DNA of 64,000 bases from Loxodes magnus (lineage: Eukaryota > Ciliophora > Karyorelictea > Loxodida > Loxodidae), in NCBI GenBank assembly GCA_946699065.1, contig CAMPDV010000269.1:186001-250000 (forward strand), in the 5' to 3' direction. The notes beneath the pieces were generated by a model. It saw only the letters and a program-made list of their open reading frames with translations. It did not search any database and had not been told where the DNA came from. Every line of letters begins with the position of its first letter. Positions within the stretch are counted from its first letter, which is position 1. Below are positions 93 through 64,000 of this stretch, in pieces. The position numbers and the translations under genes were made by a program.

Positions 93-785
93 CTTGACGT
101 CCCATAGTCTCACCGTATAATCTGCACTTCCCGATACGATGAACTCTGAATCACTGGATATAGCCACAGATAATACATAATTTGTGTGACCACTCATGGT
201 CTTACAGGTACCTGTCTATATGTTCCATAGTCTCACTGTCGAATCTCTACTTCCCGATACGATGAACTCTGAATCAATGGATATAGCCACAGATCATACA
301 GAATTTGTGTGACCACTCATGGTCTTACAGGTACCTGTATTGACGTTCCATAGTCTCACCGTATAATCTCCACTTCCCGATACGATGAACTCTGAATCAC
401 TGGATATAGCCACAGCATATACATGACCAGTGTGACCACTCATGGTCTTACAGGTACCTGTCTTGACGTTCCATAGTCTCACCGTCTCATCTCTACTTCC
501 CGATACGATGAACTCTGAATCACTGGATATAGACACAGATCATACATGACTAGTGTGACCACTCATGGTCTTACAGGTACCTGTCTTGACGTCCCATAGT
601 CTCACCGTATAATCTGCACTTCCCGATACGATGAACTCTGAATCACTGGATATAGCCACAGATAATACATAATCTGTGTGACCACTCATGGTCTTACAGG
701 TACCTGTCTTGACGTTCAATAGTCTCACCGTATAATCATGACTTCCCGATACGATGAACTCTGAATCAATGGATATAGCCACAGA

Positions 786-2314
786 TCATACATGACTAGT
801 GTGACCACTCATGGTCTTACAAGTACCTGTCTTGACGTTCAATAGTCTCACCGTATAATCATGACTTCCCGATACGATGAACTCTGAATCAATGGATATA
901 GACACAGATCATACATGACTAGTGTGACCACTCATGGTCTTACAGGTACCTGTCTTGACGTTCCATAGTCTCACCGTCTCATCTCTACTTCCCGATACGA
1001 TGAACTCTGAATCACTGGATATAGACACAGATCATACATGACTAGTGTGACCACTCATGGTCTTACAGGTACCTGTCTTGACGTCCCATAGTCTCACCGT
1101 ATAATCTGCACTTCCCGATACGATGAACTCTGAATCACTGGATATAGCCACAGATAATACATAATCTGTGTGACCACTCATGGTCTTACAGGTACCTGTC
1201 TTGACGTTCCATAGTCTCACTGTCGAATCTCTACTTCCCGATACGATGAACTCTGAATCAATGGATATAGACACAGATCATACATGACTAGTGTGACCAC
1301 TCATGGTCTTACAGGTACCTGTCTTGACGTTCAATAGTCTCACCGTATAATCATGACTTCCCGATACGATGAACTCTGAATCAATGGATATAGCCACAGA
1401 TGATACATAACTAGTGTGACCACTCATAGTCTTACAGGTACCTGTCTTGACGTTCCATAGTCTCACCGTATAATCTGCACTTCCCGATACGATGAACTCT
1501 GAATCAATGGATATAGCCACAGATGATACATAACTAGTGTGACCACTCATGGTCTTACAGGTACCTGTCTTGACGTTCCATAGTCTCACTGTCGAATCTC
1601 TACTTCCCGATACGATGAACTCTGAATCAATGGATATAGACACAGATCATACATGACTAGTGTGACCACTCATGGTCTTACAGGTACCTGTCTTGACGTT
1701 CAATAGTCTCACCGTATAATCATGACTTCCCGATACGATGAACTCTGAATCAATGGATATAGCCACAGATGATACATAACTAGTGTGACCACTCATAGTC
1801 TTACAGGTACCTGTCTTGACGTTCCATAGTCTCACCGTATAATCATGACTTCCCGATACGATGAACTCTGAATCACTGGATATAGCCACAGCATATACAT
1901 AACTAGTGTGACCACTCATGGTCTTACAGGTACCTGTCTTGACGTTCCATAGTCTCACCGTATAATCTCAACTTCCCGATACGATGAACTCTGAATCACT
2001 GGATATAGCCACAGCATATACATGACCAGTGTGACCACTCATGGTCTTACAGGTACCTGTCTTGACGTCCCATAGTCTCACCGTCTCATCTCTACTTCCC
2101 GATACGATGAACTCTGAATCAATGGATATAGCCACAGATCATACAGAATTTGTGTGACCACTCATGGTCTTACAGGTACCTGTATTGACGTTCCATAGTC
2201 TCACCGTATAATCTCCACTTCCCGATACGATGAACTCTGAATCACTGGATATAGCCACAGCATATACATGACCAGTGTGACCACTCATGGTCTTACAGGT
2301 ACCTGTCTTGACGT
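786..2314 (-). repeat. Higher-order block A1 (related to 4107-5512)
   Basis: TGA codons at 786, 909 and 1032 match those at 4107, 4230 and 4353 (offset 3321 bp, 27 units). The position-22 TGA at 1968 and the position-6 TGA at 2139 match 5166 and 5337 (offset 3198 bp, 26 units). The copies therefore differ by one unit gained or lost, and internal units are reshuffled: the TGA codons at 1278 and 1647 have no counterpart. Identity at the right end stops near 2314/5512, where a GTC/GTT linker difference starts. Several units here read LLN instead of LWN at W29. Confidence 0.75.
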
Positions 2315-3611
2315 CCCATAGTCTCACCGTATAATCATGACTTCCCGATACGATGAACTCTGAATCACTGGATATAGCCACAGATGATACATAACTAGTC
2401 TGACCACTCATGGTCTTACAGGTACCTGTCTTGACGTCCCATAGTCTCACCGTATAATCATTACTTCCCGATACGATGAACTCTGAATCACTGGATATAG
2501 CCACAGCATATACAAAATAAGAGTGACCACTCATGGTCTTACAGGTACCTGTCTTGACGTCCCATAGTCTCACCGTATAATCATTACTTCCCGATACGAT
2601 GAACTCTGAATCACTGGATATAGCCACAGATCTTACAGAATTTGTGTGACCACTCATGGTCTTACAGGTACCTGTCTTGACGTTCCATAGTCTCACCGTA
2701 TTATCACTACTTCCCGATACGATGAACTCTGAATCACTGGATATAGCCACAGATGATACAGAATAAGTGAGACCACTCTTGGTCTTACAGGTACCTGTCT
2801 TGACGTTCCATAGTCTCACCGTATAATCATGACTTCCCGATACGATGAACTCTGAATCAATGGATATAGCCACAGATGATACATAACTAGTGTGACCACT
2901 CATGGTCTTACAGGTACCTGTCTTGACGTTCCATAGTCTCACCGTATAATCATGACTTCCCGATACGATGAACTCTGAATCACTGGATATAGCCACAGAT
3001 CTTACAGAATTTGTGTGACCACTCATGGTCTTACAGGTACCTGTCTTGACGTTCCATAGTCTCACCGTATTATCACTACTTCCCGATACGATGAACTCTG
3101 AATCACTGGATATAGCCACAGATGATACAGAATAAGTGAGACCACTCTTGGTCTTACAGGTACCTGTCTTGACGTTCCATAGTCTCACCGTATAATCATG
3201 ACTTCCCGATACGATGAACTCTGAATCAATGGATATAGCCACAGATGATACATAACTAGTGTGACCACTCATGGTCTTACAGGTACCTGTCTTGACGTTC
3301 CATAGTCTCACCGTATTATCACTACTTCCCGATACGATGAACTCTGAATCACTGGATATAGCCACAGATAATACATAACTAGTGCGACCACTCATGGTCT
3401 TACAGGTACCTGTCTTGACGTTCCATAGTCTCACCGTCTTATCATCACTTCCCGATACGATGAACTCTGAATCACTGGATATAGCCACAGCATATACAGA
3501 ACTAGTGTGACCACTTATGGTCTTACAGGTACCTGTCTTGACGTCCCATAGTCTCACTGTCGAATCTCTACTTCCCGATACGATGAACTCTGAATCAATG
3601 GATATAGACAC
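2139..3611 (-). CDS. Stop-free WD40 stretch, 12 units
   Basis: This stretch is open between position-6 TGA codons at 3615 and 2139. Twelve blades would make more than one seven-bladed propeller. It holds two of the few CKTKSGLTYS units (M39 to K, H1 to L; near 2770 and 3140), spaced 369 bp apart inside a three-unit internal duplication. It also has an SGQTSYV unit and an HSYF unit. The first residue is an internal GTG Val, not a real start. Under the standard code this would be a fragment. Confidence 0.4.
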   Translation of the reverse strand: MSISIDSEFIVSGSRDSTVRLWDVKTGTCKTISGHTSSVYAVAISSDSEFIVSGSDDKTVRLWNVKTGTCKTMSGRTSYVLSVAISSDSEFIVSGSSDNTVRLWNVKTGTCKTMSGHTSYVSSVAISIDSEFIVSGSHDYTVRLWNVKTGTCKTKSGLTYSVSSVAISSDSEFIVSGSSDNTVRLWNVKTGTCKTMSGHTNSVRSVAISSDSEFIVSGSHDYTVRLWNVKTGTCKTMSGHTSYVSSVAISIDSEFIVSGSHDYTVRLWNVKTGTCKTKSGLTYSVSSVAISSDSEFIVSGSSDNTVRLWNVKTGTCKTMSGHTNSVRSVAISSDSEFIVSGSNDYTVRLWDVKTGTCKTMSGHSYFVYAVAISSDSEFIVSGSNDYTVRLWDVKTGTCKTMSGQTSYVSSVAISSDSEFIVSGSHDYTVRLWDVKTGTCKTMSGHTGHVYAVAISSDSEFIVSGSGDYTVRLWNVNTGTCKTMSGHTNSV

Positions 3612-4106
3612 AGATCATACATGACTAGTGTGACCACTCATGGTCTTACAGGTACCTGTCTTGACGTTCCATAGTCTCACCGTCTCATCTCTACTTCCCG
3701 ATACGATGAACTCTGAATCACTGGATATAGCCACAGATAATACATAATTTGTGTGACCACTCATGGTCTTACAGGTACCTGTCTTGACGTTCCATAGTCT
3801 CACCGTCTTATCATCACTTCCCGATACGATGAACTCTGAATCACTGGATATAGCCACAGATCTTACAGAATTTTTGTGACCACTCATGGTCTTACAGGTA
3901 CCTGTCTTGACGTTCCATAGTCTCACCGTATAATCTCCACTTCCCGATACGATGAACTCTGAATCACTGGATATAGACACAGATAATACATAATCTGTGT
4001 GACCACTCATGGTCTTACAGGTACCTGTCTTGACGTTCCATAGTCTCACTGTCGAATCTCTACTTCCCGATACGATGAACTCTGAATCAATGGATATAGC
4101 CACAGA

Positions 4107-5512
4107 TCATACATGACTAGTGTGACCACTCATGGTCTTACAAGTACCTGTCTTGACGTTCAATAGTCTCACCGTATAATCATGACTTCCCGATACGATG
4201 AACTCTGAATCAATGGATATAGACACAGATCATACATGACTAGTGTGACCACTCATGGTCTTACAGGTACCTGTCTTGACGTTCCATAGTCTCACCGTCT
4301 CATCTCTACTTTCCGATACGATGAACTCTGAATCACTGGATATAGACACAGATCATACATGACTAGTGTGACCACTCATGGTCTTACAGGTACCTGTCTT
4401 GACGTCCCATAGTCTCACCGTATAATCTGCACTTCCCGATACGATGAACTCTGAATCACTGGATATAGCCACAGATAATACATAATCTGTGTGACCACTC
4501 ATGGTCTTACAGGTACCTGTCTTGACGTTCCATAGTCTCACTGTCGAATCTCTACTTCCCGATACGATGAACTCTGAATCAATGGATATAGCCACAGATG
4601 ATACATAACTAGTGTGACCACTCATGGTCTTACAGGTACCTGTCTTGACGTTCCATAGTCTCACCGTATAATCATGACTTCCCGATACGATGAACTCTGA
4701 ATCAATGGATATAGCCACAGATGATACATAACTAGTGTGACCACTCATAGTCTTACAGGTACCTGTCTTGACGTTCCATAGTCTCACCGTATAATCTGCA
4801 CTTCCCGATACGATGAACTCTGAATCACTGGATATAGCCACAGATGATACATAACTAGTGTGACCACTCATGGTCTTACAGGTACCTGTCTTGACGTTCA
4901 ATAGTCTCACCGTATAATCATGACTTCCCGATACGATGAACTCTGAATCAATGGATATAGCCACAGATGATACATAACTAGTGTGACCACTCATAGTCTT
5001 ACAGGTACCTGTCTTGACGTTCCATAGTCTCACCGTATAATCATGACTTCCCGATACGATGAACTCTGAATCACTGGATATAGCCACAGCATATACATAA
5101 CTAGTGTGACCACTCATGGTCTTACAGGTACCTGTCTTGACGTTCCATAGTCTCACCGTATAATCTCAACTTCCCGATACGATGAACTCTGAATCACTGG
5201 ATATAGCCACAGCATATACATGACCAGTGTGACCACTCATGGTCTTACAGGTACCTGTCTTGACGTCCCATAGTCTCACCGTCTCATCTCTACTTCCCGA
5301 TACGATGAACTCTGAATCAATGGATATAGCCACAGATCATACAGAATTTGTGTGACCACTCATGGTCTTACAGGTACCTGTATTGACGTTCCATAGTCTC
5401 ACCGTATAATCTCCACTTCCCGATACGATGAACTCTGAATCACTGGATATAGCCACAGCATATACATGACCAGTGTGACCACTCATGGTCTTACAGGTAC
5501 CTGTCTTGACGT
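4107..5512 (-). repeat. Higher-order block A2 (related to 786-2314)
   Basis: This is the second copy of the block described at 786-2314. It carries the same position-22 TGA (5166-5168) and the same pair of units with NVNTG and YAVAIS alleles around 5337-5470. Its middle has fewer position-6 TGA codons than copy A1, so it has a longer open stretch (4353-5156, about 6.6 units). Confidence 0.72.
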
Positions 5513-6347
5513 TCCATAGTCTCACCGTCTCATCTCTACTTTCCGATACGATGAACTCTGAATCACTGGATATAGCCACAGATAATACATAACTAGTGTG
5601 ACCACTCATGGTCTTACAGGTACCTGTCTTGACGTTCCATAGTCTCACCGTCTCATCTCTACTTCCCGATACGATGAACTCTGAATCACTGGATATAGCC
5701 ACAGATAATACATAATCTGTGTGACCACTCATGGTCTTACAGGTACCTGTCTTGACGTTCCATAGTCTCACCGTCTTATCACTACTTCCCGATACGATGA
5801 ACTCTGAATCACTGGATATAGCCACAGATCTTACAGAATTTGTGTGACCACTCATGGTCTTACAGGTACCTGTCTTGACGTTCCATAGTCTCACCGTATT
5901 ATCACTACTTCCCGATACGATGAACTCTGAATCACTGGATATAGCCACAGATGATACAGAATAAGTGAGACCACTCTTGGTCTTACAGGTACCTGTCTTG
6001 ACGTTCCATAGTCTCACCGTATAATCATGACTTCCCGATACGATGAACTCTGAATCAATGGATATAGCCACAGATGATACATAACTAGTGTGACCACTCA
6101 TGGTCTTACAGGTACCTGTCTTGACGTTCCATAGTCTCACCGTATTATCACTACTTCCCGATACGATGAACTCTGAATCACTGGATATAGCCACAGATAA
6201 TACATAACTAGTGCGACCACTCATGGTCTTACAGGTACCTGTCTTGACGTTCCATAGTCTCACCGTATAATCATGACTTCCCGATACGATGAACTCTGAA
6301 TCACTGGATATAGCCACAGATGATACATAACTAGTCTGACCACTCAT
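5337..6347 (-). CDS. Stop-free WD40 stretch, about 8 units
   Basis: This is bounded above by TAG in the linker (6366-6368, K32) and below by position-6 TGA at 5337. It contains one LTYS/KTK unit and one SES unit (G20 to E, near 5530). The last unit carries the NVNTG linker seen before many position-6 TGA codons. There is no credible start codon. Confidence 0.38.
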   Translation of the reverse strand: MSGQTSYVSSVAISSDSEFIVSGSHDYTVRLWNVKTGTCKTMSGRTSYVLSVAISSDSEFIVSGSSDNTVRLWNVKTGTCKTMSGHTSYVSSVAISIDSEFIVSGSHDYTVRLWNVKTGTCKTKSGLTYSVSSVAISSDSEFIVSGSSDNTVRLWNVKTGTCKTMSGHTNSVRSVAISSDSEFIVSGSSDKTVRLWNVKTGTCKTMSGHTDYVLSVAISSDSEFIVSGSRDETVRLWNVKTGTCKTMSGHTSYVLSVAISSDSEFIVSESRDETVRLWNVKTGTCKTMSGHTGHVYAVAISSDSEFIVSGSGDYTVRLWNVNTGTCKTMSGHTNSV

Positions 6348-6404
6348 GGTCTTACAGGTACCTGTCTATATGTTCCATAGTCTCACTGTCGAATCTCTAC
6401 TTCC

Positions 6405-6406
6405 CA
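6405..6406 (-). other. 1-bp deletion (frameshift) in codon 19 region
   Basis: The + strand reads ttcccatacg where every other unit has ttcccgatacg or a substitution of it. The missing G shifts the minus-strand frame, so in-frame stops below this point lie at coordinates divisible by 3 (for example 5337), and above it at remainder 2 (for example 6935). The homologous unit in the neighbouring block (about 9108) is intact, so the change was not copied. Confidence 0.9.
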
Positions 6407-6934
6407 TACGATGAACTCTGAATCACTGGATATAGCCACAGATGATACAGAACTAGTGCGACCACTCATGGTCTTACAGGTACCTGTCTTGACGTTCCAT
6501 AGTCTCACCGTATAATCTCCACTTCCCGATACGATGAACTCTGAATCACTGGATATAGACACAGATAATACATAATCTGTGTGACCACTCATGGTCTTAC
6601 AGGTACCTGTCTTGACGTTCCATAGTCTCACTGTCGAATCTCTACTTCCCGATACGATGAACTCTGAATCACTGGATATAGCCACAGATGATACAGAACT
6701 AGTGCGACCACTCATGGTCTTGCAAGTACCTGTCTTGACGTTCCATAGTCTCACCGTATAATCTGCACTTCCCGATACGATGAACTCTGAATCAATGGAT
6801 ATAGCCACAGATGATACATAACTAGTGTGACCACTCATGGTCTTACAGTTACCTGTCTTGACGTTCCATAGTCTCACTGTCGAATCTCTACTTCCCGATA
6901 CGATGAACTCTGAATCAATGGATATAGACACAGA

Positions 6935-9763
6935 TCATACATGACTAGTGTGACCACTCATGGTCTTACAGGTACCTGTCTTGACGTTCCATAGTCTCAC
7001 CGTCTTATCATGACTTCCCGATACGATGAACTCTGAATCAATGGATATAGACACAGATCATACAGAATTTGTGTGACCACTCACGGTCTTACAGGTACCT
7101 GTCTTGACGTTCCATAGTCTCACTGTCGAATCTCTACTTCCCGATACGATGAACTCTGAATCAATGGATATAGACACAGATCATACATGACTAGTGTGAC
7201 CACTCATGGTCTTACAGGTACCTGTCTTGACGTTCCATAGTCTCACCGTCTTATCATGACTTCCCGATACGATGAACTCTGAATCACTGGATATAGCCAC
7301 AGATAATACATAATTTGTGTGACCACTCATGGTCTTACAGGTACCTGTCTTGACGTTCCATAGTCTCACTGTCGAATCTCTACTTCCCGATACGATGAAC
7401 TCTGAATCAATGGATATAGACACAGATCATACATAACTAGTGTGACCACTCATGGTCTTACAGGTACCTGTCTTGACGTTCCATAGTCTCACCGTCTTAT
7501 CATCACTTCCCGATACGATGAACTCTGAATCACTGGATATAGCCACAGATGATACATAACTAGTCTGACCACTCATGGTCTTACAGGTACCTGTCTTGAC
7601 GTCCCATAGTCTCACCGTATAATCATTACTTCCCGATACGATGAACTCTGAATCACTGGATATAGCCACAGCATATACATGACCAGTGTGACCACTCATG
7701 GTCTTACAGGTACCTGTCTTGACGTTCCATAGTCTCACCGTATAATCATGACTTCCCGATACGATGAACTCTGAATCACTGGATATAGCCACAGATGATA
7801 CATAACTAGTGTGACCACTCATGGTCTTACAGGTACCTGTCTTGACGTTCCATAGTCTCACCGTATAATCATGACTTCCCGATACGATGAACTCTGAATC
7901 ACTGGATATAGCCACAGATGATACATAACTAGTGTGACCACTCATGGTCTTACAGGTACCTGTCTTGACGTTCCATAGTCTCACCGTCTCATCTCTACTT
8001 CCCGATACGATGAACTCTGAATCAATGGATATAGCCACAGCATATACATGACCAGTGTGACCACTCATGGTCTTACAGGTACCTGTCTTGACGTCCCATA
8101 GTCTCACCGTCTCATCTCTACTTCCCGATACGATGAACTCTGAATCAATGGATATAGCCACAGATCATACAGAATTTGTGTGACCACTCATGGTCTTACA
8201 GGTACCTGTATTGACGTTCCATAGTCTCACCGTATAATCTCCACTTCCCGATACGATGAACTCTGAATCACTGGATATAGCCACAGCATATACATGACCA
8301 GTGTGACCACTCATGGTCTTACAGGTACCTGTCTTGACGTTCCATAGTCTCACCGTCTCATCTCTACTTCCCGATACGATGAACTCTGAATCACTGGATA
8401 TAGCCACAGATAATACATAATCTGTGTGACCACTCATGGTCTTACAGGTACCTGTCTTGACGTTCCATAGTCTCACCGTCTTATCACTACTTCCCGATAC
8501 GATGAACTCTGAATCACTGGATAAAGCCACAGATCTTACAGAATTTGTGTGACCACTCATGGTCTTACAGGTACCTGTCTTGACGTTCAATAGTCTCACC
8601 GTATAATCATGACTTCCCGATACGATGAACTCTGAATCAATGGATATAGCCACAGATGATACATAACTAGTGTGACCACTCATAGTCTTACAGGTACCTG
8701 TCTTGACGTTCCATAGTCTCACCGTCTCATCTCTACTTCCCGATACGATGAACTCTGAATCAATGGATATAGCCACAGATGATACAGAACTAGTGTGACC
8801 ACTCATGGTCTTACAGGTACCTGTCTTGACGTTCAATAGTCTCACCGTATAATCATGACTTCCCGATACGATGAACTCTGAATCACTGGATATAGCCACA
8901 GATAATACATAACTAGTGCGACCACTCATGGTCTTACAGGTACCTGTCTTGACGTTCCATAGTCTCACCGTATAATCATGACTTCCCGATACGATGAACT
9001 CTGAATCACTGGATATAGCCACAGATGATACATAACTAGTCTGACCACTCATGGTCTTACAGGTACCTGTCTATATGTTCCATAGTCTCACTGTCGAATC
9101 TCTACTTCCCGATACGATGAACTCTGAATCACTGGATATAGCCACAGATGATACAGAACTAGTGCGACCACTCATGGTCTTACAGGTACCTGTCTTGACG
9201 TTCCATAGTCTCACCGTATAATCTCCACTTCCCGATACGATGAACTCTGAATCACTGGATATAGCCACAGCATATACATGACCAGTGTGACCACTCATGG
9301 TCTTACAGGTACCTGTCTTGACGTTCCATAGTCTCACCGTCTTATCACTACTTCCCGATACGATGAACTCTGAATCACTGGATATAGACACAGATAATAC
9401 ATAATCTGTGTGACCACTCATGGTCTTACAGGTACCTGTCTTGACGTTCCATAGTCTCACTGTCGAATCTCTACTTCCCGATACGATGAACTCTGAATCA
9501 CTGGATATAGCCACAGATGATACAGAACTAGTGCGACCACTCATGGTCTTACAGGTACCTGTCTTGACGTTCCATAGTCTCACCGTATAATCATGACTTC
9601 CCGATACGATGAACTCTGAATCACTGGATATAGCCACAGATGATACATAACTAGTGTGACCACTCATGGTCTTACAGGTACCTGTCTTGACGTTCCATAG
9701 TCTCACTGTCGAATCTCTACTTCCCGATACGATGAACTCTGAATCAATGGATATAGACACAGA
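6935..9763 (-). repeat. 23-unit higher-order repeat, copy 1 (2829 bp)
   Basis: In-frame stops at 6935, 7058, 7181, 7427, 8165 and 9071 recur at +2829 bp (9764, 9887, 10010, 10256, 10994, 11900). 2829 is 23 x 123. The translated stretches in this block match those of copy 2 except for at least one unit near 7245, where H22-D23-K24 replaces R22-D23-E24. A rare CKTVSG unit (M39 to V, near 7083) and a rare SVALS unit (I10 to L, near 8523) also recur, confirming duplication of the whole block. Confidence 0.9.
8165..9052 (-). CDS. Stop-free WD40 stretch, about 7 units (block copy 1)
   Basis: One propeller's worth of units between the linker TAG at 9071 and TGA at 8165. It includes LLN units (W29 to L) and the SVALS unit. 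Its translation is identical to 10994-11881 in the next 2829-bp block copy. Confidence 0.36.
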   Translation of the reverse strand: MSGQTSYVSSVAISSDSEFIVSGSHDYTVRLWNVKTGTCKTMSGRTSYVLSVAISSDSEFIVSGSHDYTVRLLNVKTGTCKTMSGHTSSVSSVAISIDSEFIVSGSRDETVRLWNVKTGTCKTMSGHTSYVSSVAISIDSEFIVSGSHDYTVRLLNVKTGTCKTMSGHTNSVRSVALSSDSEFIVSGSSDKTVRLWNVKTGTCKTMSGHTDYVLSVAISSDSEFIVSGSRDETVRLWNVKTGTCKTMSGHTGHVYAVAISSDSEFIVSGSGDYTVRLWNVNTGTCKTMSGHTNSV

Positions 9764-12592: not shown

Positions 12593-13697
12593 TCATACAT
12601 GACTAGTGTGACCACTCATGGTCTTACAGGTACCTGTCTTGACGTTCCATAGTCTCACCGTCTTATCATGACTTCCCGATACGATGAACTCTGAATCAAT
12701 GGATATAGACACAGATCATACAGAATTTGTGTGACCACTCACGGTCTTACAGGTACCTGTCTTGACGTTCCATAGTCTCACTGTCGAATCTCTACTTCCC
12801 GATACGATGAACTCTGAATCAATGGATATAGACACAGATCATACATGACTAGTGTGACCACTCATGGTCTTACAGGTACCTGTCTTGACGTTCCATAGTC
12901 TCACCGTCTCATCTCTACTTCCCGATACGATGAACTCTGAATCACTGGATATAGCCACAGATAATACATAATTTGTGTGACCACTCATGGTCTTACAGGT
13001 ACCTGTCTTGACGTTCCATAGTCTCACTGTCGAATCTCTACTTCCCGATACGATGAACTCTGAATCAATGGATATAGACACAGATCATACATAACTAGTG
13101 TGACCACTCATGGTCTTACAGGTACCTGTCTTGACGTTCCATAGTCTCACCGTCTTATCATCACTTCCCGATACGATGAACTCTGAATCACTGGATATAG
13201 CCACAGATGATACATAACTAGTCTGACCACTCATGGTCTTACAGGTACCTGTCTTGACGTCCCATAGTCTCACCGTATAATCATTACTTCCCGATACGAT
13301 GAACTCTGAATCACTGGATATAGCCACAGCATATACATGACCAGTGTGACCACTCATGGTCTTACAGGTACCTGTCTTGACGTTCCATAGTCTCACCGTA
13401 TAATCATGACTTCCCGATACGATGAACTCTGAATCACTGGATATAGCCACAGATGATACATAACTAGTGTGACCACTCATGGTCTTACAGGTACCTGTCT
13501 TGACGTTCCATAGTCTCACCGTATAATCATGACTTCCCGATACGATGAACTCTGAATCACTGGATATAGCCACAGATGATACATAACTAGTGTGACCACT
13601 CATGGTCTTACAGGTACCTGTCTTGACGTTCCATAGTCTCACCGTCTCATCTCTACTTCCCGATACGATGAACTCTGAATCAATGGATATAGCCACA
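12593..13697 (-). repeat. 23-unit higher-order repeat, partial copy 3
   Basis: Stops at 12593, 12716, 12839 and 13085 continue the 2829-bp spacing. The match to copy 2 ends near 13697, where codon 6 is AGA (R) in a DNA context reading gatcttac, whereas copy 2 has the TAT-GCT (Y-A) allele. About nine of the 23 units are present. Confidence 0.85.
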
Positions 13698-24343: not shown

Positions 24344-24358
24344 CGTATTATCACTACT

Positions 24359-35227: not shown

Positions 35228-35347
<120 letters not shown>

Positions 35348-52442: not shown

Positions 52443-53546
52443 TCATACATAATCTGTGTGACCACTCATGGTCTTACAGGTACCTGTCTTGACGTTCCAT
52501 AGTCTCACCGTCTCATCTCTACTTCCCGATACGATGAACTCTGAATCACTGGATATAGCCACAGATGATACAGAACTAGTGCGACCACTCATGGTCTTAC
52601 AAGTACCTGTCTTGACGTTCCATAGTCTCACCGTATAATCATGACTTCCCGATACGATGAACTCTGAATCACTGGATATAGCCACAGATGATACATAATC
52701 TGTGTGACCACTCATGGTCTTACAGGTACCTGTCTTGACGTTCCATAGTCTCACCGTATAATTATGACTTTCCGATACGATGAACTCTGAATCACTGGAT
52801 ATAGCCACAGATGATACAGAACTAGTGTGACCACTCATGGTCTTACAGGTACCTGTCTTGACGTTCCATAGTCTCACCGTCTCATCTCTACTTCCCGATA
52901 CGATGAACTCTGAATCACTGGATATAGCCACAGATGATACAGAACTAGTGCGACCACTCATGGTCTTACAAGTACCTGTCTTGACGTTCCATAGTCTCAC
53001 CGTATAATCATGACTTCCCGATACGATGAACTCTGAATCAATGGATATAGACACAGATGATACATAACCAGTGTGACCACTCATGGTCTTACAGGTACCT
53101 GTCTTGACGTTCCATAGTCTCACCGTATAATCATGACTTCCCGATACGATGAACTCTGAATCACTGGATATAGCCACAGATGATACATAACTAGTGTGAC
53201 CACTCATGGTCTTACAGGTACCTGTCTTGACGTTCCATAGTCTCACCGTATTATCACTACTTCCCGATACGATGAACTCTGAATCAATGGATATAGCCAC
53301 AGATGATACATAATCTGTGTGACCACTCATGGTCTTACAGGTACCTGTCTTGACGTTCCATAGTCTCACCGTATAATCATGACTTCCCGATACGATGAAC
53401 TCTGAATCACTGGATATAGCCACAGATAATACAGAACTAGAGTGACCACTCATGGTCTTACAGGTACCTGTCTTGACGTTCCATAGTCTCACCGTCTCAT
53501 CTCTACTTCCCGATACGATGAACTCTGAATCAATGGATATAGCCAC
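52443..53546 (-). CDS. Stop-free WD40 stretch, 9 units
   Basis: Nine units between TGA at 53550 and 52443. One unit has two changes in the SGS-D segment (SESHNYTV, near 52763: G20 to E and D23 to N). RTSSV and DYV units dominate. Confidence 0.38.
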   Translation of the reverse strand: MAISIDSEFIVSGSRDETVRLWNVKTGTCKTMSGHSSSVLSVAISSDSEFIVSGSHDYTVRLWNVKTGTCKTMSGHTDYVSSVAISIDSEFIVSGSSDNTVRLWNVKTGTCKTMSGHTSYVSSVAISSDSEFIVSGSHDYTVRLWNVKTGTCKTMSGHTGYVSSVSISIDSEFIVSGSHDYTVRLWNVKTGTCKTMSGRTSSVSSVAISSDSEFIVSGSRDETVRLWNVKTGTCKTMSGHTSSVSSVAISSDSEFIVSESHNYTVRLWNVKTGTCKTMSGHTDYVSSVAISSDSEFIVSGSHDYTVRLWNVKTGTCKTMSGRTSSVSSVAISSDSEFIVSGSRDETVRLWNVKTGTCKTMSGHTDYV

Positions 53547-53549
53547 ATA

Positions 53550-54530
53550 TCATACATAACTAGTGTGACCACTCATGGTCTTACAGGTACCTGTCTTGAC
53601 GTTCCATAGTCTCACCGTATTATCACTACTTCCCGATACGATGAACTCTGAATCACTGGATATAGCCACAGATGATACAGAATAAGTGAGACCACTCTTG
53701 GTCTTACAGGTACCTGTCTTGACGTTCCATAGTCTCACCGTCTCATCTCTACTTCCCGATACGATGAACTCTGAATCAATGGATATAGCCACAGATGATA
53801 CATAACTAGTGTGACCACTCATGGTCTTACAGGTACCTGTCTTGACGTTCCATAGTCTCACCGTATTATCACTACTTCCCGATACGATGAACTCTGAATC
53901 ACTGGATATAGCCACAGATGATACAGAATTTGTGTGACCACTCATGGTCTTACAAGTACCTGTCTTGACGTTCCATAGTCTCACCGTATAATCATGACTT
54001 CCCGATACGATGAACTCTGAATCACTGGATATAGCCACAGATGATACATAACTAGTCTGACCACTCATGGTCTTACAGGTACCTGTCTTGACGTTCCATA
54101 GTCTCACCGTATTATCATTACTTCCCGAGACGATGAACTCTGAATCACTGGATATAGCCTCAGATCTTACATAATCTGTGTGACCACTCATGGTCTTACA
54201 GGTACCTGTATTGACGTTCCATAGTCTCACCGTATTATCACTACTTCCCGATACGATGAACTCTGAATCACTGGATATAGCCACAGCATATACATGACCA
54301 GTGTGACCACTCATGGTCTTACAGGTACCTGTCTTGACGTTCCATAGTCTCACCGTATAATCATGACTTCCCGATACGATGAACTCTGAATCACTGGATA
54401 TAGCCACAGATGATACATAACTAGTGCGACCACTCATGGTCTTACAAGTACCTGTCTTGACGTTCCATAGTCTCACCGTATAATCATGACTTCCCGATAC
54501 GATGAACTCTGAATCAATGGATATAGCCAC
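53550..54530 (-). CDS. Stop-free WD40 stretch, 8 units
   Basis: Open between TGA at 54534 and 53550. It includes a KTKSGLTYS unit (near 53690) and a RSEAIS unit (near 54162). Its lower bound is a TGA in a distinct context (gccacatatcatac, where S7 is Y). Confidence 0.38.
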   Translation of the reverse strand: MAISIDSEFIVSGSHDYTVRLWNVKTGTCKTMSGRTSYVSSVAISSDSEFIVSGSHDYTVRLWNVKTGTCKTMSGHTGHVYAVAISSDSEFIVSGSSDNTVRLWNVNTGTCKTMSGHTDYVRSEAISSDSEFIVSGSNDNTVRLWNVKTGTCKTMSGQTSYVSSVAISSDSEFIVSGSHDYTVRLWNVKTGTCKTMSGHTNSVSSVAISSDSEFIVSGSSDNTVRLWNVKTGTCKTMSGHTSYVSSVAISIDSEFIVSGSRDETVRLWNVKTGTCKTKSGLTYSVSSVAISSDSEFIVSGSSDNTVRLWNVKTGTCKTMSGHTSYV

Positions 54531-54533
54531 ATA

Positions 54534-56075
54534 TCATACATAACTAGTGTGACCACTCATGGTCTTACAGGTACCTGTCTTGACGTTCCATAGTCTCACC
54601 GTCTCATCTGTACTTCCCGATACGATGAACACTGAATCAATGGATATAGCCACAGATGATACATAACTAGTGTGACCACTCATGGTCTTACAGGTACCTG
54701 TCTTGACGTTCCATAGTCTCACCGTATTATCACTACTTCCCGATACGATGAACTCTGAATCACTGGATATAGCCACAGATGATACAGAATTTGTGTGACC
54801 ACTCATGGTCTTACAGGTACCTGTCTTGACGTCCCATAGTCTCACCATATAATCATGACTTCCCGATACGATGAACTCTGAATCACTGGATATAGCCACA
54901 GATCTTACATAATCTGTGTGACCACTCATGGTCTTACAGGTACCTGTCTTGACGTTCCATAGTCTCACCGTATAATCATGACTTCCCGATACGATGAACT
55001 CTGAATCAATGGATATAGCCACAGATGATACATAATCTGTGTGACCACTCATGGTCTTACAGGTACCTGTCTTGACGTTCCATAGTCTCACCGTATTATC
55101 ACTACTTCCCGATACGATGAACTCTGAATCAATGGATATAGCCACAGATGATACATAACTAGTGTGACCACTCATGGTCTTACAGGTACCTGTCTTGACG
55201 TTCCATAGTCTCACCGTATAATCATGACTTCCCGATACGATGAACTCTGAATCAATGGATATAGCCACAGATGATACATAATCTGTGTGACCACTCATGG
55301 TCTTACAGGTACCTGTCTTGACGTTCCATAGTCTCACCGTATTATCACTACTTCCCGATACGATGAACTCTGAATCACTGGATATAGCCACAGATGATAC
55401 AGAATTTGTGTGACCACTCATGGTCTTACAGGTACCTGTCTTGACGTCCCATAGTCTCACCATATAATCATGACTTCCCGATACGATGAACTCTGAATCA
55501 CTGGATATAGCCACAGATAATACATAACCAGTGTGACCACTCATGGTCTTACAGGTACCTGTCTTGACGTTCCATAGTCTCACCGTCTCATCTCTACTTC
55601 CCGATACGATGAACTCTGAATCAATGGATATAGCCACAGATGATACATAATCTGTGTGACCACTCATGGTCTTACAGGTACCTGTCTTGACGTTCCATAG
55701 TCTCACCGTATTATCACTACTTCCCGATACGATGAACTCTGAATCAATGGATATAGCCACAGATGATACATAACTAGTGTGACCACTCATGGTCTTACAG
55801 GTACCTGTCTTGACGTTCCATAGTCTCACCGTATAATCATGACTTCCCGATACGATGAACTCTGAATCACTGGATATAGCCACAGATGATACATAACTAG
55901 TGTGACCACTCATGGTCTTACAGGTACCTGTCTTGACGTTCCATAGTCTCACCGTATTATCACTACTTCCCGATACGATGAACTCTGAATCACTGGATAT
56001 AGCCACAGATAATACAGAACTAGAGTGACCACTCATGGTCTTACAGGTACCTGTCTTGACGTTCCATAGTCTCAC
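54534..56075 (-). CDS. Second-longest stop-free WD40 stretch, 12.7 units
   Basis: Runs from the codon-19 TAG at 56094 down to TGA at 54534 (513 residues from an internal GTG). It holds two DYMVRLWD units (V26 to M) 615 bp apart (near 54846 and 55461), a T22 unit and an SVFIV unit (E15 to V, near 54631). The five-unit internal duplication marked by the M26 units is visible directly. Confidence 0.42.
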   Translation of the reverse strand: MRLWNVKTGTCKTMSGHSSSVLSVAISSDSEFIVSGSSDNTVRLWNVKTGTCKTMSGHTSYVSSVAISSDSEFIVSGSHDYTVRLWNVKTGTCKTMSGHTSYVSSVAISIDSEFIVSGSSDNTVRLWNVKTGTCKTMSGHTDYVSSVAISIDSEFIVSGSRDETVRLWNVKTGTCKTMSGHTGYVLSVAISSDSEFIVSGSHDYMVRLWDVKTGTCKTMSGHTNSVSSVAISSDSEFIVSGSSDNTVRLWNVKTGTCKTMSGHTDYVSSVAISIDSEFIVSGSHDYTVRLWNVKTGTCKTMSGHTSYVSSVAISIDSEFIVSGSSDNTVRLWNVKTGTCKTMSGHTDYVSSVAISIDSEFIVSGSHDYTVRLWNVKTGTCKTMSGHTDYVRSVAISSDSEFIVSGSHDYMVRLWDVKTGTCKTMSGHTNSVSSVAISSDSEFIVSGSSDNTVRLWNVKTGTCKTMSGHTSYVSSVAISIDSVFIVSGSTDETVRLWNVKTGTCKTMSGHTSYV

Positions 56076-58553
56076 CGTATTATCACTACTTCCCTATACG
56101 ATGAACTCTGAATCACTGGATATAGCCACAGCATATACATGACCAGTGTGACCACTCATGGTCTTACAGGTACCTGTCTTGACGTTCCATAGTCTCACCG
56201 TCTCATCTCTACTTCCCGATACGATGAACTCTGAATCACTGGATATAGCCACAGATGATACAGAACTAGTGCGACCACTCATGGTCTTACAAGTACCTGT
56301 CTTGACGTTCCATAGTCTCACCGTATAATCATGACTTCCCGATACGATGAACTCTGAATCACTGGATATAGCCACAGCATATACATGACCAGTGTGACCA
56401 CTCATGGTCTTACAGGTACCTGTCTTGACGTTCCATAGTCTCACTGTCGAATCTCTACTTCCCGATACGATGAACTCTGAATCAATGGATATAGACACAG
56501 ATCATACAGAATTTGTGTGACCACTCATGGTCTTACAGGTACCTGTCTTGACGTTCCATAGTCTCACCGTATAATCATGACTTCCCGATACGATGAACTC
56601 TGAATCAATGGATATAGCCACATATCATACAGAATTTGTGTGACCACTCATGGTCTTACAGGTACCTGTCTTGACGTTCCATAGTCTCACCGTCTCATCT
56701 GTACTTCCCGATACGATGAACTCTGAATCAATGGATATAGCCACAGATGATACATAACTAGTGTGACCACTCATGGTCTTACAGGTACCTGTCTTGACGT
56801 TCCATAGTCTCACCGTATTATCACTACTTCCCGATACGATGAACTCTGAATCACTGGATATAGCCACAGATGATACAGAATTTGTGTGACCACTCATGGT
56901 CTTACAGGTACCTGTCTTGACGTCCCATAGTCTCACCATATAATCATTACTTCCCGATACGATGAACTCTGAATCACTGGATATAGCCACAGCATATACA
57001 TGACCAGTGTGACCACTCATGGTCTTACAGGTACCTGTCTTGACGTTCCATAGTCTCACCGTCTTATCATCACTTCCCGATACGATGAACTCTGAATCAA
57101 TGGATATAGCCACAGCATATACAGAACTAGTGTAACCACTCATGGTCTTACAGGTACCTGTCTTGACGTCCCATAGTCTCACCGTATAATCTCAACTTCC
57201 CGATACGATGAACTCTGAATCACTGGATATAGCCACAGATGATACATAACTAGTATGACCACTCATGGTCTTACAGGTACCTGTCTTGACGTCCCATAGT
57301 CTCACCGTATAATCTCAACTTCCCGATACGATGAACTCTGAATCACTGGATATAGCCACAGCATATACAGAGCTAGTGTGACCACTCATGGTCTTACAGG
57401 TACCTGTCTTGACGTCCCATAGTCTCACCGTATAATCATTACTTCCCGATACGATGAACTCTGAATCAATGGATATAGCCACATATCATACATAACTAGT
57501 GTGACCACTCATGGTCTTACAGGTACCTGTCTTGACGTTCCATAGTCTCACCGTATTATCACTACTTCCCGATACGATGAACACTGAATCAATGGATATA
57601 GCCACAGATGATACATAACTAGTGTGACCACTCATGGTCTTACAGGTACCTGTCTTGACGTTCCATAGTCTCACCGTTTCATCTCTACTTCCCGATACGA
57701 TGAACTCTGAATCAATGGATATAGCCACAGATGATACATAACTAGTGTGACCACTCATGGTCTTACAGGTACCTGTCTTGACGTTCCATAGTCTCACCGT
57801 ATTATCACTACTTCCCGATACGATGAACTCTGAATCAATGGATATAGCCACAGATCATACAGAATTTGTGTGACCACTCATGGTCTTACAAGTACCTGTC
57901 TTGACGTTCCATAGTCTCACCGTATAATCATGACTTCCCGATACGATGAACTCTGAATCACTGGATATAGCCTCAGATGATACATAATCTGTGTGACCAC
58001 TCATGGTCTTACAGGTACCTGTCTTGACGTTCCATAGTCTCACCGTCTCATCTCTACTTCCCGATACGATGAACTCTGAATCAATGGATATAGCCACAGC
58101 ATATTCAAAATAAGAGTGACCACTCATGGTCTTACAGGTACCTGTCTTGACGTTCCATAGTCTCACCGTATAATCATGACTTCCCGATACGATGAACTCT
58201 GAATCACTGGATATAGCCACAGATGATACATAATCTGTGTGACCACTCATGGTCTTACAGGTACCTGTCTTGACGTTCCATAGTCTCACCGTCTCATCTC
58301 TACTTCCCGATACGATGAACTCTGAATCACTGGATATAGACACAGATCATACAGAATTTGTGTGACCACTCATGGTCTTACAGGTACCTGTCTTGACGTT
58401 CCATAGTCTCACCGTATAATCATGACTTCCCGATACGATGAACTCTGAATCACTGGATATAGCCACAGATAATACAGAACTAGAGTGACCACTCATGGTC
58501 TTACAGGTACCTGTCTTGACGTTCCATAGTCTCACCGTATTATCACTACTTCC

Positions 58554-59537
58554 CTATACGATGAACTCTGAATCACTGGATATAGCCACAGCATATACAT
58601 GACCAGTGTGACCACTCATGGTCTTACAGGTACCTGTCTTGACGTTCCATAGTCTCACCGTCTCATCTCTACTTCCCGATACGATGAACTCTGAATCACT
58701 GGATATAGCCACAGATGATACAGAACTAGTGCGACCACTCATGGTCTTACAGGTACCTGTCTTGACGTTCCATAGTCTCACCGTATTATCACTACTTCCC
58801 TATACGATGAACTCTGAATCACTGGATATAGCCACAGCATATACATGACCAGTGTGACCACTCATGGTCTTACAGGTACCTGTCTTGACGTTCCATAGTC
58901 TCACCGTCTCATCTCTACTTCCCGATACGATGAACTCTGAATCACTGGATATAGCCACAGATGATACAGAACTAGTGCGACCACTCATGGTCTTACAAGT
59001 ACCTGTCTTGACGTTCCATAGTCTCACCGTATAATCATGACTTCCCGATACGATGAACTCTGAATCACTGGATATAGCCACAGCATATACATAATCTGTG
59101 TGACCACTCATGGTCTTACAGGTACCTGTCTTGACGTTCCATAGTCTCACCGTCTCATCTCTACTTCCCGATACGATGAACTCTGAATCAATGGATATAG
59201 ACACAGATCATACAGAATTTGTGTGACCACTCATGGTCTTACAGGTACCTGTCTTGACGTTCCATAGTCTCACCGTATAATCATGACTTCCCGATACGAT
59301 GAACTCTGAATCACTGGATATAGCCACAGATGATACAGAACTAGTGCGACCACTCATGGTCTTACAGGTACCTGTCTTGACGTTCCATAGTCTCACCGTA
59401 TAATCATGACTTCCCGATACGATGAACTCTGAATCACTGGATATAGCCACAGATAATACAGAACTAGAGTGACCACTCATGGTCTTACAGGTACCTGTCT
59501 TGACGTTCCATAGTCTCACCGTATTATCACTACTTCC
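58554..59537 (-). repeat. TAG-S19 block, tandem copies
   Basis: TAG at codon 19 occurs at 58554, 58800 (two units on) and 59538 (six units on), each followed on the + strand side by the same GHVYAV unit and an RTSSV unit. The same arrangement lies 20 units away at 56094. One nonsense-bearing unit has been amplified locally several times. Confidence 0.78.
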
Positions 59538-62500
59538 CTATACGATGAACTCTGAATCACTGGATATAGCCACAGCATATACATGACCAGTGTGACCACT
59601 CATGGTCTTACAGGTACCTGTCTTGACGTTCCATAGTCTCACCGTCTCATCTCTACTTCCCGATACGATGAACTCTGAATCACTGGATATAGCCACAGAT
59701 GATACAGAACTAGTGCGACCACTCATGGTCTTACAAGTACCTGTCTTGACGTTCCATAGTCTCACCGTATAATCATGACTTCCCGATACGATGAACTCTG
59801 AATCACTGGATATAGCCACAGCATATACATGACCAGTGTGACCACTCATGGTCTTACAGGTACCTGTCTTGACGTTCCATAGTCTCACCGTCTCATCTCT
59901 ACTTCCCGATACGATGAACTCTGAATCACTGGATATAGCCATAGATGATACAGAACTAGTGCGACCACTCATGGTCTTACAAGTACCTGTCTTGACGTTC
60001 CATAGTCTCACCGTATAATCATGACTTCCCGATACGATGAACTCTGAATCAATGGATATAGACACAGATCATACAGAATTTGTGTGACCACTCATGGTCT
60101 TACAGGTACCTGTCTTGACGTTCCATAGTCTCACCGTATAATCACTACTTCCCGATACGATGAACTCTGAATCAATGGATATAGCCACAGATGATACATA
60201 ATCTGTGTGACCACTCATGGTCTTACAGGTACCTGTCTTGACGTACCATAGTCTCACCGTATTATCACTACTTCCCGATACGATGAACTCTGAATCAATG
60301 GATATAGCCACAGATGATACATAATCTGTGTGACCACTCATGGTCTTACAGGTACCTGTCTTGACGTTCCATAGTCTCACCGTATTATCATGACTTCCCG
60401 ATACGATGAACTCTGAATCACTGGATATAGCCACAGATAATACAGAACTAGAGTGACCACTCATGGTCTTACAGGTACCTGTCTTGACGTTCCATAGTCT
60501 CACCGTCTCATCTCTACTTCCCGATACGATGAACTCTGAATCAATGGATATAGCCACATATCATACATAACTAGTGTGACCACTCATGGTCTTACAGGTA
60601 CCTGTCTTGACGTTCCATAGTCTCACTGTCGAATCTCTACTTCCCGATACGATGAACTCTGAATCACTGGATATAGCCACAGATGATACAGAACTAGTGC
60701 GACCACTCATGGTCTTACAATTACCTGTCTTGACGTTCCATAGTCTCACCGTATAATCATGACTTCCCGATACGATGAACTCTGAATCAATGGATATAGA
60801 CACAGATAGTACATAATGTGTGTGACCACTCATAGTCTTACAGGTACCTGTCTTGACGTTCCATAGTCTCACCGTATAATCATGACTTCCCGATACGATG
60901 AACTCTGAATCACTGGATATAGCCACAGATGATACAGAACTAGTGCGACCACTCATGGTCTTACAAGTACCTGTCTTGACGTTCCATAGTCTCACCGTAT
61001 AATCATGACTTCCCGATACGATGAACTCTGAATCAATGGATATAGCCACAGATCATACATAACCAGTGTGACCACTCATGGTCTTACAGGTACCTGTCTT
61101 GACGTTCCATAGTCTCACCGTCTCATCTCTACTTCCCGATACGATGAACTCTGAATCACTGGATATAGCCACAGATGATACAGAACTAGTGCGACCACTC
61201 ATGGTCTTACAAGTACCTGTCTTGACGTTCCATAGTCTCACCGTATAATCATGACTTCCCGATACGATGAACTCTGAATCACTGGATATAGCCACAGATA
61301 ATACAGAACTAGAGTGACCACTCATGGTCTTACAGGTACCTGTCTTGACGTTCCATAGTCTCACCGTATAATCATGACTTCCCGATACGATGAACTCTGA
61401 ATCACTGGATATAGCCTCAGATCTTACATAATCTGTGTGACCACTCATGGTCTTACAGGTACCTGTCTTGACGTTCCATAGTCTCACCGTATTATCACTA
61501 CTTCCCGATACGATGAACTCTGAATCAATGGATATAGCCACAGATCATACAGAACTAGTGCGACCACTCATGGTCTTACAAGTACCTGTCTTGACGTTCC
61601 ATAGTCTCACCGTATAATCATGACTTCCCGATACGATGAACTCTGAATCAATGGATATAGCCACAGATCATACATAACCAGTGTGACCACTCATGGTCTT
61701 ACAGGTACCTGTCTTGACGTTCCATAGTCTCACCGTCTCATCTCTACTTCCCGATACGATGAACTCTGAATCACTGGATATAGCCACAGATCATACATAA
61801 CCAGTGTGACCACTCATGGTCTTACAGGTACCTGTCTTGACGTTCCATAGTCTCACCGTATAATCTGCACTTCCCGATACGATGAACTCTGAATCAATGG
61901 ATATAGCCTCAGATCTTACATAATCTGTGTGACCACTCATGGTCTTACAGGTACCTGTATTGACGTTCCATAGTCTCACCGTATTATCACTACTTCCCGA
62001 TACGATGAACTCTGAATCACTGGATATAGCCACAGCATATACATGACCAGTGTGACCACTCATGGTCTTACAGGTACCTGTCTTGACGTTCCATAGTCTC
62101 ACCGTCTCATCTCTACTTCCCGATACGATGAACTCTGAATCACTGGATATAGCCACAGCATATTCAAAATAAGAGTGACCACTCATGGTCTTACAGGTAC
62201 CTGTCTTGACGTTCCATAGTCTCACCGTATAATCATGACTTCCCGATACGATGAACTCTGAATCACTGGATATAGCCACAGATCATACAGAATTTGTGTG
62301 ACCACTCATGGTCTTACAGGTACCTGTCTTGACGTTCCATAGTCTCACCGTATAATCATGACTTCCCGATACGATGAACTCTGAATCAATGGATATAGCC
62401 ACAGATGATACATAATCTGTGTGACCACTCATGGTCTTACAGGTACCTGTCTTGACGTACCATAGTCTCACCGTATTATCACTACTTCCCGATACGATGA

Positions 62501-64000
62501 ACTCTGAATCAATGGATATAGCCACAGATGATACATAATCTGTGTGACCACTCATGGTCTTACAGGTACCTGTCTTGACGTTCCATAGTCTCACCGTATT
62601 ATCATGACTTCCCGATACGATGAACTCTGAATCACTGGATATAGCCACAGATCATACATAACCAGTGTGACCACTCATGGTCTTACAGGTACCTGTCTTG
62701 ACGTTCCATAGTCTCACCGTCTCATCTCTACTTCCCGATACGATGAACTCTGAATCAATGGATATAGCCACATATCATACATAACTAGTGTGACCACTCA
62801 TGGTCTTACAGGTACCTGTCTTGACGTTCCATAGTCTCACTGTCGAATCTCTACTTCCCGATACGATGAACTCTGAATCACTGGATATAGCCACAGATAA
62901 TACATAATCTGTGTGACCACTCATGGTCTTACAGGTACATGTCTTGATGTTCCATAGTCTCACTGTCGAATCTCTACTTCCCTATACGATGAACTCTGAA
63001 TCACTGGATATAGCCACAGATGATACAGAACTAGTGCGACCACTCATGGTCTTACAGGTACCTGTCTTGACGTTCCATAGTCTCACCGTATAATCATGAC
63101 TTCCCGATACGATGAACTCTGAATCAATGGATATAGACACAGATCATACATGACTAGTGTGACCACTCATGGTCTTACAGGTACCTGTCTTGACGTTCCA
63201 TAGTCTCACCGTATTATCACTACTTCCCGATACGATGAACTCTGAATCAATGGATATAGACACAGATCATACAGAATTTGTGTGACCACTCATGGTCTTA
63301 CAGGTACCTGTCTTGACGTTCCATAGTCTCACCGTCTCATCTCTACTTCCCGATACGATGAACTCTGAATCACTGGATATAGCCACAGATGATACAGAAT
63401 TTGTGTGACCACTCATGGTCTTACAAGTACCTGTCTTGACGTTCCATAGTCTCACCGTATAATCATGACTTCCCGATACGATGAACTCTGAATCACTGGA
63501 TATAGCCACAGATAGTACATAATGTGTGTGACCACTCATGGTCTTACAGGTACCTGTCTTGACGTTCCATAGTCTCACCGTATAATCATGACTTCCCGAT
63601 ACGATGAACTCTGAATCAATGGATATAGCCACAGATGATACAGAACTAGTGCGACCACTCATGGTCTTACAAGTACCTGTCTTGACGTTCCATAGTCTCA
63701 CCGTATAATCATGACTTCCCGATACGATGAACTCTGAATCAATGGATATAGACACAGATAGTACATAATGTGTGTGACCACTCATGGTCTTACAGGTACC
63801 TGTCTTGACGTTCCATAGTCTCACCGTATAATCTGCACTTCCCGATACGATGAACTCTGAATCACTGGATATAGCCACAGATGATACATAATCTGTGTGA
63901 CCACTCATGGTCTTACAGGTACCTGTATTGACGTTCCATAGTCTCACCGTATTATCACTATTTCCCGATACGATGAACTCTGAATCACTGGATATAGCCA

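Follow-up and report, generated by a model that had tools for sequence, protein, structure and literature searches.

A close parallel to the repeat examined here is provided by the NWD/HNWD genes of Podospora (het-D, het-E and het-R), whose WD40 repeats serve in non-self recognition and likewise consist of highly conserved units under concerted evolution (PMC1805685, PMC2873952). The Podospora codons given as selected (7, 9, 25 and 27) have the same spacing as codons 4, 6, 22 and 24 of our unit, and in both organisms paired hypervariable WD40 codons flank conserved ones (PMC1805685). Kinase-WD40 proteins are also found in bacteria (PkwA, PDB 5yzv, and cyanobacterial examples); these are named protein kinases that were matched by their WD40 part, with no shared satellite reported. 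Very similar WD40 units make up the WD-40 repeat protein of PDB 2ymu, which we take to be bacterial and which, unlike the present array, is a single protein of 577 residues. Satellite DNA resembles the present case in its long head-to-tail arrays at many loci, its segmental duplications and its neutral drift, but differs in that the unit here is a recognisable protein repeat common to a constrained gene family.

The published macronuclear assembly of Loxodes magnus is 706 Mbp, and the organism was reported to use NCBI table 27, the karyorelict nuclear code, in which TAA and TAG encode Gln and TGA is either Trp or stop depending on its distance to the poly-A (PMC11441545). As published, the genome did not have its repeats extensively edited out. 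The window, the whole 64 000-nucleotide stretch that was analysed, is part of a 412 032 bp contig (C269) and forms a single uninterrupted head-to-tail array of WD40-derived 123 bp (41-codon) units on the minus strand (1..64000). There are 521 unit anchors in it, and the complete units number 519, of which 516 measure 123 bp and three 122 bp. Each of the three shorter units, all on the minus strand, carries a 1 bp deletion that breaks the frame (6339..6460, 40532..40653 and 41515..41636), the last two being identical in sequence. A segmental duplication typical of satellite amplification occupies 7322..13594 (minus strand), where 28 units at 10151–13594 are an exact repeat, 23 units away, of 7322–10765. 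Open reading frames of the window matched the WD40 repeat profile PF00400 (E 5e-138 for one and 1.5e-114 for another), and a protein search with a window frame returned 5844 matches, the 120 listed being generic WD40 proteins with 30–49% identity. Neither Rfam nor tRNA scanning gave a match in the window. Satellite was found in all 114 kb of the contig that were inspected, namely the window and five further 10 kb samples.

The first-pass annotation had drawn attention to about 128 in-frame TGA at codon 6, in roughly a quarter of the units, and the count was exactly 128 of the 516 full units, the other codons being TCA (167), TTA (124), TAT (55), AGA (36), CTA (3), ATC (2, each in a junction unit that is out of frame) and TTT (1). 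TGG was indeed never found there (0 of 516). The example positions it gave (294, 2139, 10256, 25631, 43095 and 63267) are all TGA on the minus strand, the outermost lying at 294..296 and 63267..63269. The 128 units with TGA at codon 6 represent 58 distinct sequences, and where at least eight backgrounds at codons 1–5 had been claimed, exactly the eight named were recovered: HTNSV (82), HTSHV (23), HTSYV (10), HTGYV (7), RTSSV (2), HTNYV (2), HTDYV (1) and HTGHV (1). When the base frequencies of codon 6 were assorted independently, 134 TGA and no TGG were predicted, so TGA is neither over- nor under-represented given those frequencies; the non-random aspect is the amount of variation concentrated at this codon. 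The statement that every in-frame TGA is at codon 6 was incorrect, as there are 10 others. Six are at hypervariable codon 22 (57315..57317 and, by first base, 57194, 49322, 35056, 5168 and 1970, all on the minus strand) and four at conserved codon 20, usually GGA (for example 46128..46130, minus strand). The window also has 20 TAG, of which 13 are at conserved codon 19, usually TCG (for example 62982..62984, minus strand), four at codon 32, one at codon 15 and two at codon 3. The two at codon 3 are in out-of-frame junction units downstream of a 1 bp deletion.

A 27-mer from the unit had 374 649 exact matches in the 705 730 643 b assembly and its reversed control had none. From this copy number the satellite family spans at least 46 Mb, a figure that may be off because the authors suspected misassembly of low-complexity repeats (PMC11441545). 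Pure satellite was present at three of ten sampled contig starts, and the two array edges recovered begin mid-unit in AT-rich DNA lacking long open frames. Among 25 sampled units that were not 123 bp long, ten were 122 or 125 bp, nine were 120 or 117 bp and six were irregular. A prokaryotic or viral origin was rejected given an assembly of this size, no 27-mer in viral contigs and no match in phages or plasmids, comparisons from which records close to the genome itself may have been omitted.

The same unit is found in a family of genes that encode a protein kinase, pentapeptide repeats and WD40 repeats, with at least 150 loci matched. When the 633 residues upstream of the WD40 region were compared with Pfam at 11 loci (E ≤ 0.001), the kinase domain PF07714 was detected in 10 and pentapeptide repeats in all 11, while NACHT was absent from the hits; the kinase domain is also present in locus L016. 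A query made from the linker and pentapeptide region of L016 gave 156 protein matches, and the 120 listed were generic pentapeptide or WD40 proteins. Kinase-WD40 loci are often near contig ends; among 18 genes on the plus strand, 13 have a right end no more than 50 kb away. Fifteen of the at least 150 loci were read, with units located by a DNA anchor alone. The middle WD40 units of these 15 loci are 90–99% identical to the satellite consensus outside five hypervariable codons, although 44 of 61 looser-anchor units were kept by similarity to that same consensus. Four of 17 gene units, from five loci, did not differ outside the hypervariable codons from some of 558 satellite units. The 450 nt upstream of the gene units are just 58–73% identical between four paralogues.

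The hypervariable codons of the satellite unit are 3, 4, 6, 22 and 24, and the gene units likewise vary most at these five. Common satellite variants fall in them in 23 of 39 cases (expected 4.8, the codons having been chosen from the data on which they were tested), and rare variants in 5 of 42 (expected 5.1). Outside these codons the rare variants comprise nine synonymous and 28 non-synonymous changes (expected synonymous 8.9, dN/dS 0.98), though they may include sequencing errors, which likewise look neutral. All satellite variants outside the five codons gave a similar result (22 synonymous and 87 non-synonymous, expected synonymous 26.4, p = 0.37). The satellite thus evolves neutrally, whereas the gene units are constrained outside the hypervariable codons (24 synonymous and 28 non-synonymous, expected synonymous 13.0, dN/dS 0.39, p = 0.001). 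The first-pass annotation had treated the array as a protein gene, but what was found is satellite DNA with no sign of coding constraint. TGA in the gene units of the 15 loci is confined to codons 4, 6 and 22, and all 23 TGA, TAG or TAA in the 44 units are at hypervariable codons. The resulting count of reassigned stops at conserved codons, 0 of 23 in genes vs 56 of 669 in the satellite, has a chance of about 0.13 and is not significant alone. TGA occupies codon 6 in five of the 44 internal gene units, which bears out the earlier suggestion that it behaves as a normal allele.

The code was examined in genes unrelated to the array, as the first-pass annotation had proposed. In five actin copies picked for holding TGA (25 of 96 actin matches do), five of the eight internal TGA are at Trp columns 81, 88 and 343, where other copies have TGG, and the other three are at columns where other copies lack Trp. 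TGA also terminates, being found at the same C-terminal column (379) in all five aligned copies. Only 14 of 63 TAA/TAG cells are at columns where another copy has CAA or CAG. The GGQ motif, which is to our knowledge universal in eRF1, is spelled GG-TAA in L024 and L025, indicating TAA as Gln; this bears on TAA and not on TAG. The WD40 gene paralogues swap TGA and TGG at matching Trp sites (RIwNI/RRWNIGR). Actin, eRF1 and the WD40 genes therefore agree with table 27, from which no difference was seen in this genome. The proposal that TGA is read as Trp was correct, but the code is already published and TGA is also a stop, so a new genetic code was rejected. In the actin with the highest score, all four Trp columns are TGG and the stop is TGA, the pattern that had been named as speaking against a Trp reading, yet the dual-use code stands.

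We conclude, with a probability of about 0.86, that the window is satellite DNA of L. magnus with a unit copied from the middle WD40 units of the kinase-WD40 genes. The genes probably came first and the satellite later. In the gene units, five codons are hypervariable, possibly as binding positions, while exchange among genes and satellite would keep the remainder nearly identical through concerted evolution. Since table 27 reads TGA far from the transcript end as Trp, TGA at codons 4, 6 and 22 of the genes would be an ordinary Trp allele. Amplification of the satellite would have carried such alleles along, and unequal exchange would have spread them over many backgrounds within it. Because the satellite drifts neutrally, TAG and TGA at conserved codons and frameshifts accumulate. 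With a unit common to fast-varying WD40 kinase genes, the TGA looks like an inherited Trp variant rather than a new code.

That the array is instead one or more real genes for giant WD40 proteins, with TGA and TAG decoded as Trp and Gln throughout, is very improbable. The unit length is divisible by three and the table 27 frame is open save for the three 1 bp deletions in 64 kb, but this table has no unconditional stop codon, and an open frame is therefore no evidence for a gene. The contig, if satellite throughout, would need to encode about 3350 units or about 137 000 residues, and the extent of the family, the unconstrained variants, the odd unit lengths and the arrays that start mid-unit all argue against such a protein. 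It is also unlikely, if less so, that TGA at codon 6 is the noise of a satellite that was never decoded and has no connection with Trp. The array is neutral at present and the TGA count matches the product of base frequencies; however, TGA is found at this codon in the gene units, variation there is also greatest at the five hypervariable codons, and it is the common variants, not the rare ones, that cluster in them. PDB 2ymu has W, R or N at the corresponding site, where Trp is thus natural.

A further explanation, that the satellite is a working archive from which gene conversion supplies the genes with new WD40 specificities, is doubtful but the least improbable of these alternatives. Gene units that match satellite units exactly or almost exactly, though the gene flanks are far apart, and the hypervariable alleles retained in the satellite are consistent with it. 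A very similar picture would be expected if units were exchanged between genes only and the satellite had branched off from them. Since constraint acts on the gene units and not on the drifting satellite, either conversion is necessarily infrequent or selection has to purge the bad tracts. If the archive were real, a satellite of tens of Mb would act as the reservoir of diversity for a recognition system with at least about 150 kinase receptors in a ciliate, and the modules fed to the genes would include TGA-encoded Trp at codons 4, 6 and 22.

Returning to the reading of the window as a satellite copied from kinase-WD40 genes, the Loxodes genes differ from those of Podospora in having a kinase and pentapeptide repeats and not NACHT, in numbering at least 150 loci and in sharing their unit with a satellite of tens of Mb. 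By their codon spacing, the hypervariable codons of Loxodes appear allorecognition-like. No paper was found that joins karyorelicts or Loxodes with WD40, or satellite tandem arrays with the WD40 repeat, and among the papers listed on Loxodes macronuclear satellite, none deals with a WD40 satellite by title and abstract. On sequence comparison, the new element would be a satellite that shares, and appears to have recently exchanged, units with a hypervariable receptor-like family.

For annotators the array carries a warning, as under table 27 any satellite can resemble an open frame. The occurrence of one WD40 unit both in a large kinase gene family and in a major satellite of a ciliate is unusual. 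It offers a system for studying how coding repeats turn into satellites, for asking if sequence returns from satellites to genes, and for learning if the recognition repertoire of ciliates is an expanded one.

The window is a single uninterrupted minus-strand array of the 123-bp (41-codon) WD40-derived unit, with 521 anchors and 519 complete units (516 of 123 bp and three of 122 bp). The first-pass annotation had reported about 128 TGA at codon 6, and the exact count is 128 of the 516 full units, with TGG there in none. The six examples given (294, 2139, 10256, 25631, 43095 and 63267) each read TGA, and the TGA6 units, which comprise 58 distinct sequences, fall on exactly the eight codon 1–5 backgrounds named. 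In-frame TGA was not confined to codon 6 as claimed, because ten others were found in the window, six at codon 22 and four at codon 20. It also holds three 1-bp deletions and 20 TAG (thirteen at codon 19, four at codon 32, one at codon 15 and two at codon 3, both of these in junction units that are out of frame). Segmental duplications are present, the longest consisting of 28 units (10151–13594 and 7322–10765, exact copies offset by 23 units).

The array is satellite DNA, and its interpretation as a giant coding gene was wrong. Five more 10-kb samples of the same contig (the window is C269:186001–250000) were satellite from end to end, as were three of ten sampled starts of other contigs, and two array edges begin mid-unit within AT-rich DNA. 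In the assembly of 705,730,643 bases in 7,843 contigs, a 27-mer of the unit (codons 13–21) had 374,649 exact matches and its reversed control had none, which at 123 bp per match amounts to at least 46.1 Mb, or 6.5% of the assembly. The exact 27-mer is present in 935 of the 1,145 anchored units taken from 11 sampled stretches, which gives a rough estimate of about 56 Mb in total. The published Loxodes magnus macronuclear assembly is described as 706 Mbp, including 231 Mbp of low-complexity tandem repeats, in a report whose main text contains neither the term WD40 nor satellite (PMC11441545). The authors state that they suspected misassembly of such repeats (PMC11441545), and the true satellite amount may therefore differ. 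In one stretch of contig C4 (L015, C4:2253000–2262999), unit spacings were irregular (306, 160, 151, 222 and 86 bp) and the exact 27-mer was found in only 1/77 cases; the block may be older and in decay. A WD40-like stretch of a different kind, degenerate and AT-rich, was recognized by eye beside a satellite edge on C4 (L013:6900–7100). The contig starts L028, L030, L031 and L034 hold other tandem repeats: AT-rich ones with periods of 99, 90 and about 404 bp, two of which are multiples of three, and one built of degenerate GTACCTA.

The codon-6 observation was sound, and the variant code proposed from it, with TGA as a sense codon and most likely Trp, is right for the organism but was already known. 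NCBI table 27 (TAA=Q, TAG=Q, TGA=W) is reported for Loxodes magnus, with UGA described as the sole stop and also as Trp where the poly-A tail is distant (PMC11441545). Internal TGA was found in 25 of 96 actin matches in the assembly, and four such copies (L042–L045) were aligned with the top match, L036. TGA at conserved Trp sites of a housekeeping gene, the check originally suggested, was seen at column 81 (TGA in three copies, TGG in two), column 88 (one and four) and column 343 (one and two, with other residues in two) but in none of the five copies at Trp column 359. Five of the eight internal TGA are at Trp columns, and at the remaining three (columns 43, 48 and 340) the other copies have no Trp. 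The C-terminal column, 379, is TGA in all five copies. TGA is therefore both Trp and stop in this genome, matching the published code. In the top copy each of the four Trp columns is TGG and the terminal codon is TGA, a pattern that had been named as contrary to the Trp reading, but under a dual-use code it is no refutation. Of 63 actin TAA/TAG cells, 14 are at columns with CAA/CAG in another copy. The GGQ motif is generally regarded as universal in eRF1, and in the eRF1 copies L024 and L025 it is spelled GG-TAA. Three eRF1-domain loci (C196:19713, C196:54613 and C2:1762690), of which two resemble each other and are separated by 35 kb, may be relevant to the reading of dual-use TGA. Forty-three full-length actin matches of nearly equal score lie on a few contigs, often several on each (C266, C711, C437, C524, C707, C1162 and others), a distribution suggestive of an amplified repeat that carries actin.

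Some satellite-like units occur as short runs within AT-rich DNA. At four loci (L009, L011, L012 and L016) these runs proved to belong to genes, and a fifth, L010, is a degenerate fragment. The L016 gene (7310–9787, minus strand; 826 codons, TGA as the last) encodes a protein kinase (PF07714, 1e-59), a linker, pentapeptide repeats (by eye) and seven WD40 matches. The L012 gene (3862–6243, plus strand; 794 codons) has, by eye, a cysteine-rich start in place of the kinase, followed by a pentapeptide-like part and seven WD40 matches. This start, RING-like by eye and seen also in L009, is joined to the same pentapeptide-WD40 part, and that of L012 had no match among the Pfam rows listed. A search with the linker-pentapeptide part and first WD40 unit of L016 gave at least 150 matches on at least 142 contigs, those listed all with E ≤ 4e-50, and pseudogenes or allelic copies may be included. 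Scans of 11 more loci showed the kinase in ten and pentapeptide repeats in all; in L050, no kinase was found in the frame scanned.

The middle WD40 units of most genes read share 90–99% identity with the satellite consensus outside the hypervariable codons (3, 4, 6, 22 and 24), whereas divergence is seen in the first unit and in those past the fourth or fifth. L011 is an exception in that its first unit is also satellite-like. Over the 450 nt 5' of the WD40 part, four paralogues are merely 58–73% identical. With the hypervariable codons set aside, four of 17 gene units from five loci were identical to one or more of 558 sampled satellite units, and such silent-site identity in genes otherwise diverged points to recent exchange of units between genes and satellite.

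Variation in the satellite was examined across 13 stretches on six contigs, which gave 1,170 anchored units (1,145 of 123 bp); two out-of-frame junction units were removed, leaving 1,143 for variant analysis. Outside the five hypervariable codons, rare variants (seen once or twice) were 9 synonymous and 28 non-synonymous (8.9 synonymous expected, dN/dS 0.98), and all variants were 22 and 87 (26.4 expected, dN/dS 1.26, p = 0.37). Rare variants showed no preference for the five codons (5 of 42, 5.1 expected), whereas 23 of 39 common variants (2% or more) were there (4.8 expected; nominal p = 5e-12, an inflated value given that the five were picked as the most variable in the same data). The codon-6 variation is therefore old, and present change in the array is neutral. 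TGA6 was found in every sampled satellite group, from 1/19 to 55/145 units, and TGG at codon 6 in none of the 1,145.

The genes differ. Of 61 units located with a DNA anchor, 44 internal ones, from 15 loci, passed a cut-off of ≥85% identity; these had 24 synonymous and 28 non-synonymous variants (13.0 synonymous expected, dN/dS 0.39, p = 0.001). All 23 TGA, TAG and TAA in these units are at hypervariable codons: TGA at codons 6 (five), 4 (four) and 22 (four), TAG at codons 24 (eight) and 4 (one), and TAA at codon 22 (one). By itself this is only suggestive (chance about 0.13), because 613 of 669 satellite TGA, TAG and TAA are also at hypervariable codons, with 56 elsewhere, and the argument rests on the dN/dS contrast between genes and satellite. 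Given that contrast and the gene-unit TGA at codon 6, the best reading of TGA6 is as a Trp allele belonging to the genes and carried by the satellite as well. The equivalent site in PDB 2ymu is W, R or N depending on the blade, lending support to Trp as a natural residue at this position. All 38 TGG in the gene units are at the structural Trp, codon 29. In the window, 506 of 516 units have TGG at that codon and none has TGA; in the gene units, by contrast, TGA is restricted to hypervariable codons, which showed no TGG. This is perhaps a founder effect.

Many family genes are near contig ends and oriented towards them: among the matches listed on C1–C1000, 32 of 55 minus-strand members were <30 kb from the left end compared with 3 of 35 on the plus strand (p = 1.7e-6), and 13 of 18 listed plus-strand members with a determined right-end distance were within 50 kb of that end. 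The placement looks subtelomeric, though a contig may end either because the chromosome does or because repeats broke the assembly; the published account states that Loxodes telomeres could not be identified (PMC11441545). In Podospora NWD genes, strong positive selection is reported on codons 7, 9, 25 and 27, around conserved codons 8 and 26 (PMC1805685), and these four sites are placed on the interaction surface (PMC2873952). The spacing is equal to that of codons 4, 6, 22 and 24 here, around V5 and D23. A fungal NLR family was ruled out, as NACHT was not found in the 11 loci scanned, but by analogy at the level of the repeats the genes look like a recognition family. The main point of interest is a satellite whose unit is common to a hypervariable kinase-WD40 family, with signs of recent exchange between them.
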